Source: Catenulispora sp. MAP5-51 (GTDB taxonomy: Bacteria; Actinomycetota; Actinomycetes; Streptomycetales; Catenulisporaceae). From it: DNA of 64,000 nt. The notes under the pieces were generated by a model. That model searched no databases, had not been told where the DNA came from, and saw only the letters and a list, made by a program, of their open reading frames with translations. Positions 8,287 through 29,019 of the stretch are shown piece after piece (positions within the stretch are counted from its first letter, which is position 1; the number at the start of each line of letters is the position of its first letter). The translations under genes and the position numbers were made by a program. The stretch spans positions 62,001 through 126,000 of the forward strand of contig NZ_JBGCCH010000017.1 in assembly GCF_041261205.1 (NCBI RefSeq), read 5' to 3'.

Positions 8287-9156
8287 ATGGAGAGAATCCT
8301 CATCACGCGCGGCCTGCTGGCCGGCGCGCTGGCCGGCCTGGTCGCGTTCTGTTTCGCGCGGATCTTCGCCGAGCCGGTCATCGACAAGGCCATCGCCTAC
8401 GAGAGCGGCCGTGACGCGGCCCAGGCGGCCCTGGACCGGGCCGCCGGGATCGCGGTCCCGGCCGACGGGCCGGACATCTTCAGCCGGACCGTGCAGAGCA
8501 ACATCGGCATCGGCGTCGGCCTGATCGCCTTCGGTGCGGGCATGGGTGCCGTCTACGCGGTGGTGTACCTGCTGTGCCTGGGCCGGGTCGGCCGGATCCA
8601 GCCGAAGGTGCTGGCCCTGCTGGTCGCCGGCGCCGGACTGGCCGGGATCTACCTGGTGCCCTACCTGAAGTACCCGGCCAACCCGCCGGCCATCGGGCAC
8701 CCGGACACGATCAAACCCCGAGCCGCGCTGTACCTGACCATGGTGGTCTGCTCGGTGGCGTTCATCCTGGCCGCGACCTGGCTGGGCCGCCGCCTGGCCC
8801 CGCGCTTCGGGAACTGGAACGCCACCCTGCTGGCCGCGCTGGCCTTCGCCGCCGCGATCGGCATCGTGATGGCGATCCTGCCCTCCCTCGGCGAGCTGTC
8901 GGCGAACGTGCACCAGTACGGACACCACGCGACCGAGACCCCGCTCCCGCTGGCCGACGCCAAGGGGAACATCGTGTACCCGGGCTTCCCGGCCGACGTG
9001 TTGTTCTCCTTCCGCTTCTACTCGATCTGCAACCAGGTCCTCCTGTGGGGCACGCTCGGGCTGGCCTTCGGGCCGATGGCCGAGCGCGTCCTGCGGCCGG
9101 CGATGCAGAGGGCTGAGGCATCGGGCGGCGCCGGCGTCACCGCGGCGGCGGTGTGA
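8287..9156 (+). CDS. cbtA: Cobalt transporter subunit CbtA
   Basis: 289 residues with about six hydrophobic helices, starting with GLLAGALAGLVAFCFARIFAE (residues 9-29). That opening matches the CbtA family, including the conserved Arg-x-x-Ala-Glu-Pro beginning. A His-rich external loop (VHQYGHHATETPLP) lies before the last helix, as expected for metal entry. ATG 8287 follows cbtB directly. The next gene overlaps its stop by 4 bases (GTGTGA), giving one B12-regulated unit of three genes. Confidence 0.9.
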   Translation: MERILITRGLLAGALAGLVAFCFARIFAEPVIDKAIAYESGRDAAQAALDRAAGIAVPADGPDIFSRTVQSNIGIGVGLIAFGAGMGAVYAVVYLLCLGRVGRIQPKVLALLVAGAGLAGIYLVPYLKYPANPPAIGHPDTIKPRAALYLTMVVCSVAFILAATWLGRRLAPRFGNWNATLLAALAFAAAIGIVMAILPSLGELSANVHQYGHHATETPLPLADAKGNIVYPGFPADVLFSFRFYSICNQVLLWGTLGLAFGPMAERVLRPAMQRAEASGGAGVTAAAV

Positions 9157-9923
9157 CGGCAGCCCGCCACGGCGCGACGGCCCCGGCGGCGGTGAGCGAG
9201 GAGCTCGCCGCGCTGGGGCCGTTCTTCGCGGTGGGGTTTCATGGATCGCGAGCACCTGCACCGCAAGCACCTGCAGGACCAGCACCCGAACCACAAGCAG
9301 CCGCTTCCTCCTGGCGCTCGATGAGCGAGCTGATCGATGGCTCGGGGGTTTTGGCCGACCGCATTGCAGCCGTCCGCGCCTTCCTCGCCGCCGGCACCGC
9401 GCAGCAGGATTCCGCGGTGGAGCTGCGGGTCGCGGCCTCGGTCGTGCACCTGGGCCTGGTCGCGCGGGTCCTGTCGCCGGTTCTCGCCCTGGCGGTGCTC
9501 CACCGGCGCGTCGGCCGGGTCCCCGCCGCCGATCTGCTGTGGCAGCCGACGCTCGGCAGCATGTTCCCGCTGTCCGTGCGCTCGGCGGCGCTCGATGGTG
9601 GCGACGGTTTCGCAGAACCCGAATGCGTCGGCGAGTTCGGCGCGGCGGTCGCGCGCTTCGGCGTCAACGAGCACATCCTGCGCGGCAACGTCGCCTCGGC
9701 GCTGGCCGCCGCCGGCCGGACGCTCGCCGAGGCCCGTCCCGACCGGCGCGAGGATGTCCGTGCCCTGATCGGCGGACGGTTGGCCGGCGCCGGGGGCTTC
9801 GAGCCGGACGGCAGCTTCCGCCGCCGCAGCTGCTGCCTCATCTACCGCGCCGCCCCGGACCGGCGGGGTGGCCTGTGCGGCGACTGCGCCCTGGCCCCGG
9901 TGCGTGGTCCAATGGATTCGTAG
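9153..9923 (+). CDS. FhuF-like ferric reductase / (2Fe-2S)-binding protein
   Basis: 256 residues. The C-terminus carries the FhuF-type cluster motif: a Cys-Cys pair, 13 residues, then Cys-Gly-Asp-Cys (SCCLIYRA ... GLCGDCALA, about residues 228-248). That spacing is slightly longer than the usual 10. The N-terminal region is helical, like siderophore-iron reductases (RVAASVVHLGLVARVLSPVLAL). It overlaps cbtA, so it is under the B12 riboswitch and may reduce the metal, siderophore or corrinoid rather than serve a classical ferric siderophore (inference). Residues 30-55 are Pro/Ala rich and probably linker. Confidence 0.78.
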   Translation: MTAARHGATAPAAVSEELAALGPFFAVGFHGSRAPAPQAPAGPAPEPQAAASSWRSMSELIDGSGVLADRIAAVRAFLAAGTAQQDSAVELRVAASVVHLGLVARVLSPVLALAVLHRRVGRVPAADLLWQPTLGSMFPLSVRSAALDGGDGFAEPECVGEFGAAVARFGVNEHILRGNVASALAAAGRTLAEARPDRREDVRALIGGRLAGAGGFEPDGSFRRRSCCLIYRAAPDRRGGLCGDCALAPVRGPMDS

Positions 9924-9938
9924 ATCGCGACAGCGATC

Positions 9939-9998
9939 GTGACAGAGCTTGAGACAGAGCTTGAGACAGAGCTCGTGACAGAGCTTGAGACAGAGCTC
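9939..9998 (+). repeat. Five 12-bp tandem repeats
   Basis: Unit TGAGACAGAGCT (variant CGTGACAGAGCT in copies 1 and 4) repeats five times without interruption at 9939-9998, just after the FhuF-like stop and before the rpiB-like gene. No spacers, so not a CRISPR. AGAGCT is palindrome-like, but no stable hairpin role is evident. Confidence 0.9.
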
Positions 9999-20662: not shown

Positions 20663-22432
20663 TCAGCGGTAGCCGAGGGTGTTCAGCGCCTTGTCGATCG
20701 CCGGCGCGGCCGCGTCGATGCCGAAGCCGCCGTTGAGCACCAGCGCGCCGAAGGCGATGTCGTCCTTCTTGTCGAAGACGATCATCCAGCTGTCGGTCTT
20801 GCCGGTCTTCGGGGTGTCGCCGGACTCCGCGGAGCCGGTCTTGCCGGCCAGGTCGGAGGTGCCGGGGAACTTGCCGTAGGCGGTGCCCTCGCCGGAGTAG
20901 ACGACGCCCTTCATCAGGGTCGTGAGCTGGCTGTCCACGTTCGCCGGCAGCGCGGTGGCGCTGATCTGCGGGGTGCCGGGCACCAGGATCGGCTGCTTGA
21001 AGGAGCCGTTCGCCACCGTGGCCGCGACCGAGGCCATGGTCAGCGGGGACATCGTGATGTTGCCCTGGCCGAAGGCGTCGCGGGCGAACAGGCCCTGGCC
21101 GTCGGCCGGCGGGACCTGCTGGTCGCCGCCGGTGCCGTAGGTGGCCGGGCCCAGGCCCAGGTCCCACTTCTGGTCCATGCCGAAGTAGTTCTTGGCCTCG
21201 GTCGACAGCGCGCTGTAGTCGCTGCCGAGTTTGCCGTCCAGGGCCAGGTGCACGAACGCGGTGTTGCAGGACTGCTCGAAGGCGTCGATCAGGTGCGCGT
21301 TCTGGATCCCGTTGCGAAGGCTCGAGTCGTTGTTGATGACCTGGCCCTCGACCGTGGCGTTGGGGCTGCAGTTCACCGGCTGGCTGGTCTGCAGGCCCTG
21401 CTGGAGCGCCAGCGCCGTGGTGATCACCTTGAACGTGGAGCCCGGGGCGCGGGCGGCCTTGTACGCCAGCGAGGGGAAGCCCGTGTCGTTGCTGGCCATG
21501 CCCAGGATGTAGCCGGTGTCGGGCTGGATCGCGACCATGCCGGAGTTCGGGTAGGCCTTCAGCGCGTTCTCGATCGCGGACTGCACGTTCGGGTCGATCG
21601 TGGTCTTGACCGACACCGTGGATCCGGAGTTCGTGCCGAGCGGGAAGACCCCCGAGTGCGGGTCCTGGGCGCCGGACTTGGGGTCGACGAACTCCACGGT
21701 CAGCTGCGTGGGCGTGGTGCCCGCCGGGACGTGAGTGGACAGCGCGTTGACGGCCCCGGACAGCGTCGGGTGCTTCGAGGTGTCGATCGTGGTGCCCTTG
21801 GAGTCGGTCACCGTCTGCTTCGGCGGCACCGCCTTCAGCAGGTCGGTCCCGCCGAGCTGCGGGTTGATGACCGCCGAGGACCAGTGCACCACCGGCGCGC
21901 CCGAGGGGCCGGCGACCAGGTCCATGCTCGAGTCGTAGGTCCAGACCAGGTTGTTGCCGAAGTCGGCGGCGACCTTGAAGCCGAACTTGGCCAGCGTCGC
22001 GGCGCCGGAGGAGGAAGCGGTCGAGCCGCCCGTCGCCGGTGCCGTGGAGCCGGACGCCGTGGACGTCGGGGAGCCCGCGTCCGTCCCCGACGAGGCGTTC
22101 TCCTGCGATCCCAGGGTCAGCGTCAGCGTCTTCGGGGTCAGCGAGCCCATCACGGCCGACAGCCGGGCCGAGGCGTCCTTGGCGTCGTCGGTGAGTGCGG
22201 CGGCTCCGTTGAAGTCGTTCGTTCCCCACGCGGTCAGGAAAGCCTGGGCCACGCTCTGCGGGGAGGCCTGCGGCGAGGAACTGGTGGTCGCGGCCGCGCC
22301 GCCCTGGGCGCCGGACGACGACTTGGACTTGCCGCTGCTGCCGAACAGCCCGCAGCCGCTGGTGGTCAGCAGGGCCGCGGCTGTCAGACCGCATGCCGTC
22401 ATCCGTACCGCCGTGATTCGCCGCCCCGTCAT
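20663..22432 (-). CDS. Class B penicillin-binding protein (MecA_N type), probable lipoprotein
   Basis: 589 residues. The N-terminus has a hydrophobic signal with a lipobox-like TSGC (Cys 27), then a Ser/Gly/Thr linker, an NTF2-like MecA_N domain (SPQSVAQAFLTAWGTNDFNGA onward), a short dimerisation region and a full transpeptidase domain: SxxK in APGSTFKVI (Ser 332), SxN in EQSCNTAF (Ser 388), KTG in LAGKTGSAE (Lys 531). It cross-links peptidoglycan outside the membrane; this architecture is shared with low-affinity PBPs. ATG 22432 is chosen over ATG 22453 because GGGGAG lies 7 bases upstream. Its lipid anchor replaces the usual N-terminal helix. Confidence 0.88.
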   Translation of the reverse strand: MTGRRITAVRMTACGLTAAALLTTSGCGLFGSSGKSKSSSGAQGGAAATTSSSPQASPQSVAQAFLTAWGTNDFNGAAALTDDAKDASARLSAVMGSLTPKTLTLTLGSQENASSGTDAGSPTSTASGSTAPATGGSTASSSGAATLAKFGFKVAADFGNNLVWTYDSSMDLVAGPSGAPVVHWSSAVINPQLGGTDLLKAVPPKQTVTDSKGTTIDTSKHPTLSGAVNALSTHVPAGTTPTQLTVEFVDPKSGAQDPHSGVFPLGTNSGSTVSVKTTIDPNVQSAIENALKAYPNSGMVAIQPDTGYILGMASNDTGFPSLAYKAARAPGSTFKVITTALALQQGLQTSQPVNCSPNATVEGQVINNDSSLRNGIQNAHLIDAFEQSCNTAFVHLALDGKLGSDYSALSTEAKNYFGMDQKWDLGLGPATYGTGGDQQVPPADGQGLFARDAFGQGNITMSPLTMASVAATVANGSFKQPILVPGTPQISATALPANVDSQLTTLMKGVVYSGEGTAYGKFPGTSDLAGKTGSAESGDTPKTGKTDSWMIVFDKKDDIAFGALVLNGGFGIDAAAPAIDKALNTLGYR

Positions 22433-22552
22433 ACGTCCACTCCCCAGTTGCATCGGCTTGCCCGCCCGAAGGCGGTAGCGGCCAAATTACACTGTCGGGG
22501 CTTTCCGATCCGATCCAGGGGCGTTTCTTTGTTCGACTTGTCAAGCCTGGAA

Positions 22553-22589
22553 GGGTCCGGCGGCGGATGGGCCGCCCGCGGCCGGACCC
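22553..22589 (-). terminator. Terminator after the radical SAM gene
   Basis: GGGTCCGGC (22553-22561) pairs with GCCGGACCC (22581-22589), with an inner stem GGCGG/CCGCC. It lies 8 bases beyond the radical SAM stop on the minus strand and so separates it from the downstream PBP gene, which has a TGTAAT -10 candidate at 22491-22486. Confidence 0.75.
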
Positions 22590-22596
22590 GGGTACC

Positions 22597-23898
22597 TCAA
22601 CTCGTGCGGATGACGTCCATGAAGGCGGACACCGAGAATTCGGCGTTCCCGGCGCCGGGCCGGCCGTAGCCGGGCGGGACCGGCAGCGCGTACTTCTCGA
22701 AGGTGTCGCGCCAGGCCAGGAGCAGCTTCACGAAGTACTCCAGCGACGGGCCCTTCTGCCGGCCCAGGTTGCTGGTCGGTTCCGGGCACCAGGTGGTGAA
22801 CCGCGGCATCACGCCGTGGCTCATGAAGAAGTCCAGGCCCTCGGTCGTGGAGGCGATCGCCTTGTCGACGTCGGTGAAGCCGTGCGGCTCGGCCATCTCC
22901 ACGCCGCCGACGAAGTTCGGGATGACGTTGGTGGCGCCGAAGACGTCGGCGGAGTCCAGGATGCGCTTGACCCACTCGTCGCGGCCGACGTAGCGGTCCT
23001 TGCCCGGGCAGATCCAGTTGAACATCTCGGCGTCCCACACCTCGTAGTTCGGGTGGTAGACGCGGTAGCCGGACTCGAAGAGCATCTTCACCTCGTCCAG
23101 CGGCAGCGCCTGGACCACGGCCTTGGGGATCCAGCGGCCGGCGAAGCGGGACTCGATGGCCTCGGCGAAGCGCGCGTAGAACTCGCCCTCGCGCATGCCG
23201 TCCAGCTTCTTGGTGATCGAGCCGCCGGTGACCGTGTAGGCCTTGGTGACGGTGTCGTACTGGTTGATCAGCGACATCGCCTCGACGATGTCGTCGATCT
23301 CCTTGACCGCCGTGTACTCCCGGCCGTTGGCCCGCTGCTGCCGGAAGTTCTCGTTCAGGTCGCAGAAGCGGCACTCCTCGTCCCGGCCCCAGTACTGGCA
23401 CAGCCGGTAGACAGTGAGGTACACCAGGTAGCCCCACTCGATGGCCGGCGCGATCTCGCTGATCTTCTTGCCCGAGGACAGGGTGTGCTCGTAGTAGCCC
23501 GGGATCGGCGGGAACTCCAGGTCGGCCAGGAACACCCCCTCGCAGCTCAGCCCGAGCTTGCCCTCGTGCAGTCCGACCACATAGGGGCTGTCCGGCGCGA
23601 CCCGCGTGGAGACCACGGTCCGCCGCAGGTCATAGGGGCCGCCGGTCATCCGGATCTCCTCCGGCGCCCGGAACTGCGCGTGCTGGGCCATCTCCGCCAC
23701 CGGCACCAGGTCGAAGGTGAAGATGAAGTAGTCCTTGGGTTTGTAACCGCTGGCCACCCTGAGCGCGTCAGGGCTGAAGGCCAGGCCCTGCCGCAGGATG
23801 TCCTGCTTGATAATGGCCTCGACCGGGAGATCCGGGAACTCCCCCATCATGCGTTCCAGCTCGCGTGTCGTCGCCCCGTCCGCTGTGACAGCGTCCAT
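22597..23898 (-). CDS. Radical SAM superfamily protein with unusual CX8CX2C cluster motif
   Basis: 433 residues. The only cysteine triplet suited to a 4Fe-4S cluster is C167, C176, C179 in RLCQYWGRDEECRFCDLN. That is CX8CX2C rather than the standard CX3CX2C, and it lies after a 160-residue N-terminal domain instead of near the start. Downstream features fit a radical SAM barrel: TVTGGSITKKLDG (GGE-like glycine motif), EVKMLFESGYRVYHPNYEVWD and NVIPNFVGGVEMAEPHGF. Substrate unknown. The gene is monocistronic with its own terminator. Start ATG 23898 has GAGG upstream. Confident on superfamily, not on function. Confidence 0.8.
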   Translation of the reverse strand: MDAVTADGATTRELERMMGEFPDLPVEAIIKQDILRQGLAFSPDALRVASGYKPKDYFIFTFDLVPVAEMAQHAQFRAPEEIRMTGGPYDLRRTVVSTRVAPDSPYVVGLHEGKLGLSCEGVFLADLEFPPIPGYYEHTLSSGKKISEIAPAIEWGYLVYLTVYRLCQYWGRDEECRFCDLNENFRQQRANGREYTAVKEIDDIVEAMSLINQYDTVTKAYTVTGGSITKKLDGMREGEFYARFAEAIESRFAGRWIPKAVVQALPLDEVKMLFESGYRVYHPNYEVWDAEMFNWICPGKDRYVGRDEWVKRILDSADVFGATNVIPNFVGGVEMAEPHGFTDVDKAIASTTEGLDFFMSHGVMPRFTTWCPEPTSNLGRQKGPSLEYFVKLLLAWRDTFEKYALPVPPGYGRPGAGNAEFSVSAFMDVIRTS

Positions 23899-24101
23899 TC
23901 TGGACCTCGCTTCCGCCTATTCCGGATAAGGTCTTGAATATCTCATGGGTTACAAGCCGGCACCGGGAGTGGGGGGCTCAGCTGGCGATGCGGGCATGAG
24001 TCGCGACGGCTTGTGCAGGGCTGGGAACAGCAGTTGTGCACATTCCGTGTGGATCGCCTGTCGGCAGTGCACTGAGCTTGCTCAAGCCCCGCGGGCGCGG
24101 G

Positions 24102-25699: not shown

Positions 25700-26860
25700 G
25701 TGTCCACCACCGACTGGGTGCTGCACGTCGACCTCGACCAGTTCATCGCCGCGGTCGAGGTCGCCCGGCGGCCCGAACTGCGCGGCCGGCCGGTCGTGGT
25801 CGGCGGCCAGGGCGACCCGACGCGGCGCGGCGTGGTGGCGACCGCGTCGTACGAGGCGCGCGAGTACGGCGTCCACTCCGGCATGCCGATGCGCACCGCC
25901 GCGAAGAAGTGCCCCGACTGCGTCTTCCTGCCGGCCGACCGGGCCGCGTACGAGAAGGTCTCCGAGCGCGTCATGGCCACCCTGCGCGAGTTCCCGGTCG
26001 TGGTCGAGGTGATGGGCTGGGACGAGGCCTTCCTCGGCGCGCGCACCGAGGACCCCGAGGCGCTGGCCGCCGACGTCCGCGAAGCCGTGCTCGGCGAGAC
26101 CGGCCTGTCCTGCTCCGTGGGCATCGGCGACAACAAGCTGCGCGCCAAGACCGCCACCGGGTTCGCCAAGCCGGCCGGCGTCCACCGGCTCACCCGCGAG
26201 AACTGGGCCGCCGTGATGGGCGACCGCCCCACCGACGCGCTGTGGGGCATCGGGTCGCGCACCGGCAAGAAGCTCGCCGGACTCGGCCTGCACACCGTCG
26301 CCGACCTGGCCCGCGCCGACCGGGCGATGCTCGCCGATCACTTCGGCCCGAAGATGGGCCCCTACTTCTGGCTGCTGGCCCAGGGCGCCGGTGATACCGA
26401 GGTGACCGGCACCCCGCACGTGGCCAAGGGCCGCAGCCGCGAGGTCACCTTCCAGGAGAACCTCACCGACACGGCCGAGCTCGCCGCCCAGGTGCGGCTG
26501 CTGGCCCGGCATGTGGCGCAGGACGTCGCCGACGAGGGCCGGCCGGCGACGCGCGTCGGGCTGAAGATCCGGTACGCGCCGTTCGTCACCAAGACCCGCA
26601 GCATCACGCTGCCGGCGCCCACGGCCGACGCCGGGGAGATCGAGCGCGCGGCGCTGGAGGTGTTCGCGCTGCTGGAGCTGGACCGGCCGGTGCGGCTGCT
26701 GGGGGTGCGGGTGGAGCTTTCGGAGGAGGACTCGGAGTCGGCACCGGAGGTAGAGCCGGAGGTCATACCGGAGGTAGAACCGGAGGTAGTGCCGGAGGTA
26801 GGACCGGAGGTCGAACCAAGCGCTGAAACCGTTGCGGACACTCAATCCGCACCGTCATGA
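25700..26860 (+). CDS. dinB: DNA polymerase IV (Y-family translesion polymerase)
   Basis: 386 residues. Palm motifs: LHVDLDQFIAAVEV (metal Asp residues) and VVEVMGWDEAFLGA, where the common S-x-DE is GWDE. Thumb helix-hairpin-helix is ALWGIGSRTGKKLAGLGLHTVADLA; the little finger follows (GKGRSREVTFQENL-type). Translesion DNA synthesis in the cytosol. GTG 25700 is the start. The C-terminus lacks an obvious beta-clamp motif and ends in six tetrapeptide repeats P-E-V-x. The stop overlaps the convergent LigD-polymerase gene by 6 bases. Confidence 0.9.
   Translation: MSTTDWVLHVDLDQFIAAVEVARRPELRGRPVVVGGQGDPTRRGVVATASYEAREYGVHSGMPMRTAAKKCPDCVFLPADRAAYEKVSERVMATLREFPVVVEVMGWDEAFLGARTEDPEALAADVREAVLGETGLSCSVGIGDNKLRAKTATGFAKPAGVHRLTRENWAAVMGDRPTDALWGIGSRTGKKLAGLGLHTVADLARADRAMLADHFGPKMGPYFWLLAQGAGDTEVTGTPHVAKGRSREVTFQENLTDTAELAAQVRLLARHVAQDVADEGRPATRVGLKIRYAPFVTKTRSITLPAPTADAGEIERAALEVFALLELDRPVRLLGVRVELSEEDSESAPEVEPEVIPEVEPEVVPEVGPEVEPSAETVADTQSAPS
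26744..26815 (+). repeat. Six 12-bp in-frame repeats in the dinB tail
   Basis: Unit CCGGAGGTAGAG (last three to four bases variable) occurs six times in a row, coding P-E-V-E, P-E-V-I, P-E-V-E, P-E-V-V, P-E-V-G, P-E-V-E. Each copy contains GGAGGT, but these lie inside the gene and have no start codon of their own in a useful position. Confidence 0.9.
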
Positions 26861-27877
26861 GGCCTCGGCCGGATCCACATGCTTGGCCCGGCTCGGGGCC
26901 ACCCGCGGCGGCTCGTTCGGCTGCTTGGGATAGACCGGCGGCCACGGCGCGTCCATCAAGCCGTTCGCCATGTCCTGCTTCGACATCTCCAGCAGCGGCT
27001 CCAGGGACTGCGGCTGCGCGTTGTACTCGGCCCAGGGGTCGCCGCGCTCGGCGACCCGGTCCGGGACGGTGGCGATGGTCAGCTCGTCGGGGACGACCGT
27101 CAACAGCTCGTCCCAGAAGATCGGTGTCGACACCTGCGCTCCCACCCGCGGCCGGACGCACCACGCGCCGAACACCGTCTTGTGCGGCGCGTTCTGGTTG
27201 AAGTCCACGAACACCCGAGCACCCCGTTCCTCCTTCCACCACTGCGCGGTGATCTGCTCCGGATACCGGCGTTCCATTTCCCGGGCCAGCGCGACGGCGG
27301 CCGCGCGGACCTCGTAGCCGTCCCAGCGGTGCTGGAGGCTGACGTAGATGTGCAGCCCGCGCGATCCCGAGGTCTTCACGTACGCCTCGATGCCCAGCTC
27401 GGCCAGCAGTTGCCGGGTGAGCACGGCGGCGTGCCGGACCTCGGGGTAGCCGACCCCGGGGGAGGGGTCCAGGTCGATGCGCAGCTCGTCGGTGATCTCC
27501 GGCTCCGAGGCGCGGATCGGCCAGACGTGGAAGCCCAGGCAGCCCAGGTTCACGCCCCAGATGATGTGCGCCATGTCGGCCGCGACCAGCGCGTCGCTGG
27601 TGGTGCCGTTGGGCGTGGAGACCTCCATGGTGGTCAGCCACGGCGGCGCGGTCTTCGGGACCCGCTTCTGGAACCACGACTTGCCGCCGGCGCCGTCCGG
27701 ATAGCGCTCCAGCAGCAGCGGCCGGTCCTTCAGGGTGTTCATGATGGGCCCGGAGACCGCGAGGTAGTACCGGACGAGGTCCATCTTGGTCTCGCCGCGC
27801 TTGCTGAAGTAGACCTTCTCCGGGTGGGACACCGCGACCTCGGTGTCGTCGATGTCGAGGATGGTCTCCTTGCTCAT
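26855..27877 (-). CDS. LigD-type polymerase/primase domain protein (non-homologous end joining)
   Basis: 340 residues, a stand-alone archaeo-eukaryotic primase domain of the LigD PolDom type. SHPEKVYFSKRGETKMDLVRYY at the start, LRIDLDPSPGVGYPEV with the metal-binding Asp pair, SGSRGLHIYVSL and ARVFVDFNQNAPHKT are the family motifs. It fills gaps or adds ribonucleotides at DNA ends. The upstream ligase gene overlaps it by 4 bases, so the two act together. No nuclease domain and no Ku gene is visible in the window. ATG 27877. Confidence 0.92.
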   Translation of the reverse strand: MSKETILDIDDTEVAVSHPEKVYFSKRGETKMDLVRYYLAVSGPIMNTLKDRPLLLERYPDGAGGKSWFQKRVPKTAPPWLTTMEVSTPNGTTSDALVAADMAHIIWGVNLGCLGFHVWPIRASEPEITDELRIDLDPSPGVGYPEVRHAAVLTRQLLAELGIEAYVKTSGSRGLHIYVSLQHRWDGYEVRAAAVALAREMERRYPEQITAQWWKEERGARVFVDFNQNAPHKTVFGAWCVRPRVGAQVSTPIFWDELLTVVPDELTIATVPDRVAERGDPWAEYNAQPQSLEPLLEMSKQDMANGLMDAPWPPVYPKQPNEPPRVAPSRAKHVDPAEAS

Positions 27878-29019
27878 GCGCCACCGCCCTTCGCGCCGTC
27901 CGTCGCGCCGTCCGTCGTGCTGTCCGTCGCGCCGCCCTGCGCCGCCGGGCCGAACACCTTGGCCAGCTCGGCCGGCGCCACCTGCTCCAGTTGCGCGTAC
28001 GTGCACGACTCCGGCGTCCGGTCCCGCCGGAAGCGGACCAGGCGGCCGCCGTGCCGGAAACGGCCGGACAGCAGGTGCTCGTACCGGACCTCCGCGACCA
28101 GCTCCGGCCGCAGCGGCTCCCAGGCCAGGTCCTTGTCGGCGGACCAGCGGCTGCGGGCGCCGGGCATGCGGTGGCCGTCGGCGCGCTCCTGGGCCTCGGC
28201 CTCGGCCCAGCCGCGCCAGGGATGGCCGTCCAGGGCGTTCTCGCGCAACGGTTCCAGCTCCCCGACCAGCTCCCGGCGCCGTGCGGCGGTGAAGCTGCTG
28301 GCCACGCCGACGTGGTGCAGGACGCCCTCGTCGTCGAACAGGCCGAGCAGCAGCGAGCCGACGCCTTCGCCGTCCTTGTGCCAGCGGAAGCCCGCCACGA
28401 CGCAGTCGGCGGTGCGCTCGTGCTTCACCTTGAGCATGACCCGCTTGTTCTGCTCGTACGGCAGGTCCAGGGGCTTGGCCATGACCCCGTCGAAGCCCGC
28501 GCCCTCGAAGCGGGTGAACCAGTCCTGCGCGACGTCCGCGTCCTGGGTCAGCGGCGTCAGGATCACCCGGCCGTTCCCCGCCGGCAGCGCTTCGGCCAGC
28601 GCCCGGCGGCGCTCGTGGAACGGCTCGCCGCTCAGGTCCCGGTCCCCGAGCGCCAGCAGGTCGAAGGCGACGAAGCTGGCCGGCGTCTCGGCCGCGAGCT
28701 TGCGGACCCGGGAGGCGGCCGGGTGCAGGCGGTTCTGGAGCGTGTCGAAGTCCAGGCCGTCGCCGGTGACCACGACGATCTCCCCGTCCACCACGCAGCG
28801 CTCCGGCAGCGCGTCCGCCAGCAGCTCGACGAGCTCGGGGAAGTACCGGGTCAACGGCCGGTCGTTGCGCGAACCCAGCTCCACCTCGGCCCCGTCCCGG
28901 AACACGACGCACCGGAACCCGTCCCACTTCGGCTCGTAGGCCAGCCCCGGCGAGCGGGGCACCTCGCGCACGGCGGTGGCCAGCATCGGCCGCACCGGCG
29001 GCATGACCGGGAGATCCAC
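27874..29019 (-). CDS. ATP-dependent DNA ligase (LigC/LigD ligase-domain type)
   Basis: 381 residues. Adenylation Lys 31 lies in AYEPKWDGFR (motif I), followed by ELGSRNDRPLTRYFPE, VVDGEIVV (motif IIIa region), FVAFDLLAL, GVMAKPLDLPY (motif IV) and RVMLKVKHERT (motif V). An OB domain completes it. The last 20 residues are Thr/Asp/Gly/Ala repeats (TDSTTDGATDGAKGGG), probably disordered. GTG 29019 is used; ATG 29004 is an alternative. It seals breaks in partnership with the coupled LigD-type polymerase. Confidence 0.92.
   Translation of the reverse strand: MDLPVMPPVRPMLATAVREVPRSPGLAYEPKWDGFRCVVFRDGAEVELGSRNDRPLTRYFPELVELLADALPERCVVDGEIVVVTGDGLDFDTLQNRLHPAASRVRKLAAETPASFVAFDLLALGDRDLSGEPFHERRRALAEALPAGNGRVILTPLTQDADVAQDWFTRFEGAGFDGVMAKPLDLPYEQNKRVMLKVKHERTADCVVAGFRWHKDGEGVGSLLLGLFDDEGVLHHVGVASSFTAARRRELVGELEPLRENALDGHPWRGWAEAEAQERADGHRMPGARSRWSADKDLAWEPLRPELVAEVRYEHLLSGRFRHGGRLVRFRRDRTPESCTYAQLEQVAPAELAKVFGPAAQGGATDSTTDGATDGAKGGGA

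Follow-up and report, generated by a model that had tools for sequence, protein, structure and literature searches.

A radical SAM gene with unusually spaced cysteines

The window, by which we mean the whole 64,000-nucleotide stretch of Catenulispora sp. MAP5-51 DNA that was analysed, carries on its minus strand a gene for a radical SAM protein that we refer to as the variant (Table 1). C167, C176 and C179 lie where the first-pass annotation of this DNA had placed them in the 433-residue translation, with the CX8CX2C spacing it had given, and canonical CX3CX2C is indeed absent from the protein. That annotation was also right to place the gene next to a penicillin-binding protein (PBP) gene: the neighbour matches PF00905, and its ATG lies 143 bp downstream of the variant gene. 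Its further claim, that the gene has its own terminator, can be upheld only in part: a candidate stem-loop does follow the stop codon (-31.8 kcal/mol), but its z against shuffles is only -1.34, and a terminator scan across 22553-22589 found no terminator with a T tail. The PBP cluster (c158) recurs in five other Catenulispora loci, after the gene in three and just upstream in two, and we do not think that the two genes are functionally linked. Elsewhere in the window, overlapping minus-strand reading frames at 26855-29019 resemble, judged by eye only, the polymerase and ligase parts of a LigD-type end-joining protein.

Table 1. The variant gene, its parts and its flanks, in window coordinates.
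Feature	Position	Strand	Basis or remark
Variant radical SAM protein, 433 aa (P0001)	22597..23898	(-)	ATG start; NF045502 180.4 bits, cut-off 125
N-terminal region, residues 1-157 (helical at 9-37, with a five-stranded part at 81-128 after it)	23428..23898	(-)	predicted model
Radical SAM TIM barrel, residues 158-433	22600..23427	(-)	predicted model and PDB comparison
CX8CX2C motif, C167-X8-C176-X2-C179	23362..23400	(-)	
C167	23398-23400	(-)	
C176	23371-23373	(-)	
C179	23362-23364	(-)	
C371 (TWCPEP), just past the last barrel strand	22786..22788	(-)	invariance and model
GAGG, ribosome-binding-like, 6 nt ahead of the ATG	23905..23908	(-)	from sequence
Possible stem-loop, 3' of the stop codon	22553..22589	(-)	folding versus shuffles
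Penicillin-binding protein (PBP) neighbour	20663..22453	(-)	PF00905; PF05223 weakly

Predicted fold and family assignment

An AlphaFold model based on 52 aligned sequences (51 of the 80 homologues introduced below plus the window protein) reaches a mean pLDDT of 92.9 and depicts a radical SAM barrel, the first strand of which (residues 158-164) runs immediately ahead of C167. The cluster loop of the predicted model follows the first strand of a TIM barrel, as in the radical SAM superfamily, with CX8CX2C in place of the usual CX3CX2C; other members of the superfamily likewise depart from that spacing. The possibility that the protein might not be a TIM-barrel radical SAM enzyme at all, raised in the first-pass annotation as what would overturn its reading, did not materialise given this confident prediction, and a motif placed late, behind an N-terminal domain, is what the model depicts: the barrel begins around residue 158, preceded by N-terminal residues 1-157.

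The top Foldseek and VIA-align matches are radical SAM enzymes (HydE, LipA/LIAS, PylB, BioB and MqnE; VIA Z about 14-16). MqnE (TIGR03700; PDB 6xi9, 6xig) shares the barrel (6xi9: VIA Z 14.8, 242 residues, 3.8 A) but is no nearer to the variant by VIA than HydE or LipA, and the variant differs from it in having no TIGR03700 match at E<=1, in its cysteine spacing (CX8CX2C versus CX3CX2C) and in its extra N-terminal part. For the latter (fragment 1-155), Foldseek gave no PDB match at E<=0.001, and of 998 chains compared by VIA none reached Z 2.

Among sequence models, the window protein scores above the cut-off of NF045502 ('variant_rSAM'), which is titled just 'radical SAM protein' without a function and matches all 52 aligned sequences. 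It has no Pfam match at E<=1, and the sole match of a PDB sequence search lies at E 0.5. A weak match to the MSMEG_0568 family (TIGR04043) over residues 96-333, likewise seen in all 52 sequences, amounts to 30.4 bits against a cut-off of 303.7, and the variant is therefore not a member. Profile alignment with hhalign gives E 6e-5 against MqnE (9 sequences; probability 64%, 139 columns) and E 4e-5 against MqnC (TIGR03699; 9 sequences, probability 71%), a likeness at superfamily level only, whereas MqnE and MqnC match each other at 8e-99, which places the predicted radical SAM fold outside the MqnE/MqnC family. In these alignments C176 and C179 pair with the second and third cysteines of the MqnE and MqnC CX3CX2C, with C167 displaced upstream. 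The displacement, the NF045502 score and the TIM-barrel model together bear out the earlier view of a distinct radical SAM subfamily.

Conservation of the motif

A genome scan returned 538 coding stretches, of which 80, at 55-95% identity, were retained. By record title these come from Catenulispora, Streptomyces, Actinoplanes, Chlorobiota, Acidobacteria, Planctomycetes, Leptospiraceae/Spirochaetales, Cloacimonadota, Calditrichaeota, Gemmatimonadetes, Methylomirabilota and others. The family search for CX8CX2C proteins that the first-pass annotation had proposed supports its motif, the spacing being constant in all 80. Note that these homologues were gathered with six sequence patterns, one of which (CQYWGRDE) overlaps part of the motif, so that a pattern-free check of the spacing matters. 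A whole-genome protein search provides one: all 11 full-length acidobacterial orthologues have CX8CX2C, and a twelfth, from a truncated gene, ends before the motif. Since L114, L119 and L121 duplicate members of the earlier set exactly, eight of the 11 are new.

The 52 aligned sequences share 105 invariant positions, including C167, C176 and C179. The claim that these three are the only plausible ligands is weaker, as a fourth cysteine, C371, is invariant too. More distant relatives in Acidobacteriota (L126-L136; 22-25% identity to the window protein) are less uniform: among the ten other than L134, CX8CX2C occurs in L126, the first gap widens to CX9, CX10 or CX11 ahead of CX2C in eight, and no such motif was found in L130. 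Judging by these sequences, cysteine spacing appears to drift in the wider family.

Menaquinone genes next to the variant

Genes of the futalosine (menaquinone) pathway lie within 10 kb of the variant, mostly adjoining it, in 14 of the 80 loci and in three phyla: Chlorobiota (L007, L008, L009), Acidobacteriota (L021, L038, L059, L077) and Actinomycetota (L060, L063, L065, L068, L072, L073, L079). The survey of gene neighbours, also proposed in the first-pass annotation, thereby qualifies its remark that the gene stands alone, which is true of the window and not of these loci. MqnA adjoins the variant in L021, L038 and L065, and an MqnC-type protein does so in nine loci (L059, L060, L063, L065, L068, L072, L073, L077, L079). 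The arrangement is clearest in L065, where a UbiX-type flavoprotein (PF02441), a polyprenyl synthetase, mqnA, the variant and an mqnC-type gene follow one another. L008 and L009 share the gene order mqnA, a futalosine-hydrolase-like PNP, the variant and a protein of 461 or 483 residues, which is an EPSP synthase in L008 and falls into the same cluster in L009. The futalosine-hydrolase-like match of L007 is below the curated cut-off (50.8 versus 124.7 bits), and in L059 the CofH_C protein at 8848-9996 is its genome's TIGR03699 match. No mqn match was obtained with 10 queries in the other 66 loci, many of which lie on short contigs.

When reading frames of the 80 loci and the window were clustered, the variant gene and the shadow frames overlying it made up the largest groups; clusters with CarA/CarB and with an oxoacid-ferredoxin oxidoreductase (L027) were common to few lineages. 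In the related records L013, L015 and L020 the variant is preceded, 108-436 bp upstream, by a gene (c4) for the large subunit of carbamoyl-phosphate synthase. In six Streptomyces loci (L043, L046, L051, L058, L061, L074) a protein of cluster c157 is encoded directly upstream on the same strand, the L043 copy bearing a weak likeness to NimABCDEF (19.9 bits versus a cut-off of 260).

Co-occurrence with the pathway and exclusion of MqnE

We then considered 28 carrier genomes, namely those of 27 of the 80 loci, chosen for variety, and the window's own. PF02621 (MqnA/MqnD) is present in 27 of them, and 27 match TIGR03699 (MqnC) at E<=1e-20, 12 of these above the curated cut-off. According to passages of PMC13386864, 4,157 of 26,264 genomes have the futalosine pathway; against that background PF02621 in 27 of 28 carriers, which are not independent genomes, is far above chance. 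G214, the genome of L022, has the variant and a strong MqnC and no PF02621 match; G218 has PF02621 matches and no CofH-family match, and the carrier G337 also has no CofH-family match. With mqn genes as neighbours in 14 of 80 loci and as companions in 27 of 28 genomes, we consider it very probable that the variant belongs to the futalosine pathway.

Which step might it serve? A replacement of MqnC was rejected because carriers retain an MqnC-scoring protein. MqnE exceeds its cut-off in only four of the 28 carriers: the window's genome, two Streptomyces and one Actinoplanes. The other 24, three of them Actinomycetota (G225, G228 and G229, the genomes of L065, L072 and L073), have one CofH-family match in 18 cases, two in five and none in one, and each of the 18 single matches scores higher as MqnC than as MqnE. 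The controls Thermus composti and Deinobacterium chartae show the converse, with MqnE and MqnC above cut-off and no NF045502 match.

Samples of two phyla, those of G208 (Acidobacteriota) and G223 (Planctomycetota), genome completeness being unstated, extend this pattern. Among 149 acidobacterial genomes, 98 have MqnE and 12 carry the variant (one as a truncated gene), with no overlap (Fisher p=1e-6, ancestry ignored). The MqnE limit here was our own (TIGR03700 E<=1e-110; 93 of the 98 are above the curated cut-off); one profile search covered 26 of the 149 genomes, the MqnE count all of them. When only the 104 genomes with a strong MqnC are considered, 87 have MqnE only, 11 the variant only, six neither and none both. 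Among 199 planctomycetal genomes, 90 have MqnE and 25 carry the variant (at E<=1e-100, again our own limit), again without overlap (p=7e-8, ancestry ignored). One CofH-family match is found in 23 of these 25 carriers and none in two, while 97 of 110 non-carriers with such matches have two or more. Neither enzyme was found in six Acidobacteriota and 20 Planctomycetota genomes despite CofH-family matches.

Two groups of acidobacterial genomes require comment. Second CofH-family matches in seven carriers were considered as MqnE and rejected: they score 287-330 bits with TIGR03700, the MqnE group at least 384. One of them lies in an 810-residue frame, about the size of FbiC. A further 11 genomes have only a weak variant match (22-29% identity) and were excluded from the carrier count; nine of them have MqnE, so that exclusion is not absolute if all weak matches are counted as carriers. 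The best of these matches is a CX8CX2C protein in G349, one of the nine with MqnE. Taken together, none of 37 carriers has MqnE in the two phyla, yet four of 28 do in the other set.

Actinomycetes with both enzymes

In the window's genome, MqnE, a PF02621 protein and MqnC are encoded within 8 kb of each other on contig C2, the variant on C17, and this MqnE is an open, full-scoring frame with CX3CX2C. Where MqnE is also present, that is here, in the two Streptomyces and in the Actinoplanes, the variant must be redundant, conditional or repurposed. The gene is kept: nine of 10 genomes of the window's genus have it, the miss being 77% complete, as do all seven same-order genomes in the phylum sample, none from that order appearing among the non-matches listed.

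In a tree of 88 rows, built by a quick method with SH-aLRT support only, Catenulispora groups with Chlorobiota (99), and the Streptomyces and Actinoplanes rows fall in with those of Thermoleophilia/Gaiella type and of Gemmatimonadota (100). Left out were L047, L050 and L053, which are kin of kept rows, the acidobacterial L116 and L120 and the truncated L125. The two separate placements suggest that the gene entered MqnE-bearing actinomycetes at least twice. Only three columns conserved at 93% or more in the other 42 rows change in Streptomyces/Actinoplanes or in Catenulispora, and no column does so in both. Two Streptomyces linear plasmids carry the variant, annotated only as radical SAM protein (NZ_CP108387.1, 7811-9181; NZ_CP108083.1, 112638-113960), with no mqn gene among the 17 features listed around it on NZ_CP108387.1, nor on NZ_CP108083.1.

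We infer that in these actinomycetes the variant would act as a second isozyme with its function kept, though conditional use or a new task may apply instead. A suggestive parallel comes from S. caniferus, for which passages of PMC4763440 describe additional mqnA, B, C and D homologues located outside a naphthoquinone cluster and an MqnE homologue within that cluster, those passages mentioning no second mqnE.

A proposed function and its rivals

The first-pass annotation spoke of unknown chemistry; gene context and a distribution complementary to that of MqnE narrow this by pointing to the MqnE step, the reaction itself being a matter of analogy. We think it reasonably probable that the variant is a radical SAM enzyme of the futalosine pathway and a non-orthologous replacement of MqnE. 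MqnE adds a deoxyadenosyl radical to the product of MqnA, and rearrangement and loss of CO2 then give aminofutalosine. By analogy, we infer the cluster, substrate and product of the variant: a putative [4Fe-4S] cluster on C167, C176 and C179 would generate the 5'-deoxyadenosyl radical by cleaving SAM, and addition of this radical to 3-[(1-carboxyvinyl)oxy]benzoate at its enol-ether double bond, followed by rearrangement and decarboxylation, would yield aminofutalosine, which would pass to MqnB-type hydrolases, MqnC and MqnD.

The kinship with MqnE at superfamily level only (6e-5, set against 8e-99 for MqnE and MqnC) and the N-terminal part, for whose fragment 1-155 no PDB match was found, might instead point to other chemistry within the same pathway, for instance conversion of the MqnA product to another adduct, or a single reaction that spans both the MqnE step and the nucleosidase step, either of which would make MqnE dispensable. 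Coexistence with MqnE in four genomes would also fit non-identical roles. Yet an MqnC-type protein and PF02621 are each kept in 27 of 28 carriers, so that later intermediates are probably kept as well, and the futalosine-hydrolase-like gene that adjoins the variant in L007-L009 fits a nucleoside adduct; on balance we regard such a departure as unlikely. A bolder version, which we hold to be doubtful, if slightly less so, is that the CX8CX2C lineage, which has an N-terminal domain of its own, carries out the committed radical step of the futalosine route in many phyla by chemistry not identical to that of MqnE, and that some actinomycetes keep both enzymes since the routes differ in product or conditions.

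Alternatively, the variant might replace MqnE in most carriers and have taken on another task in Streptomyces, Actinoplanes and Catenulispora, for example in making a naphthoquinone-like secondary metabolite. Both genes are present in four actinomycete genomes, no mqn gene was found near the variant in the loci of these three genera, the tree suggests two separate entries, and two copies sit on linear plasmids. Against this, just three of the highly conserved columns differ in these lineages, none of them in both groups, and retention in seven of seven same-order genomes fits a core role; we consider this improbable. Finally, the association might reflect common lifestyle or ancestry, the variant acting outside menaquinone synthesis altogether. 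The 66 loci without an mqn match, the lack of PF02621 in G214 and exclusion statistics that ignore ancestry could be read that way, but adjacency to mqn genes in Chlorobiota, Acidobacteriota and Actinomycetota and exclusion of MqnE in two phyla make it very unlikely indeed.

Relation to earlier work and significance

Our search covered open-licence PMC papers. Among those listed, none links the variant family to menaquinone synthesis or describes any replacement of MqnE, although earlier work may exist, for example in subscription papers or preprints; none of the open-licence matches listed (3 of 1,384 for one query) concerns the variant_rSAM family, and the phrase CX8CX2C led to one paper, on anamorsin, which is not a radical SAM enzyme. 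PMC3914697 tabulates MqnA, C and D, 'MqnE' being absent from its text. Passages of PMC4746308 predict non-orthologous replacements in quinone synthesis by similar reasoning, based on gene neighbourhood and complementary occurrence, and name an alternative for MqnD and none for MqnE.

If the variant does replace MqnE, a gap would be closed in the respiratory-quinone pathway of lineages apparently without that enzyme, and a widespread, conserved radical SAM family without a name would gain a function. Two distantly related radical SAM proteins with differently spaced cluster ligands would reach one pathway step, offering a natural comparison, and pathway annotation that demands MqnE would be overlooking such genomes.
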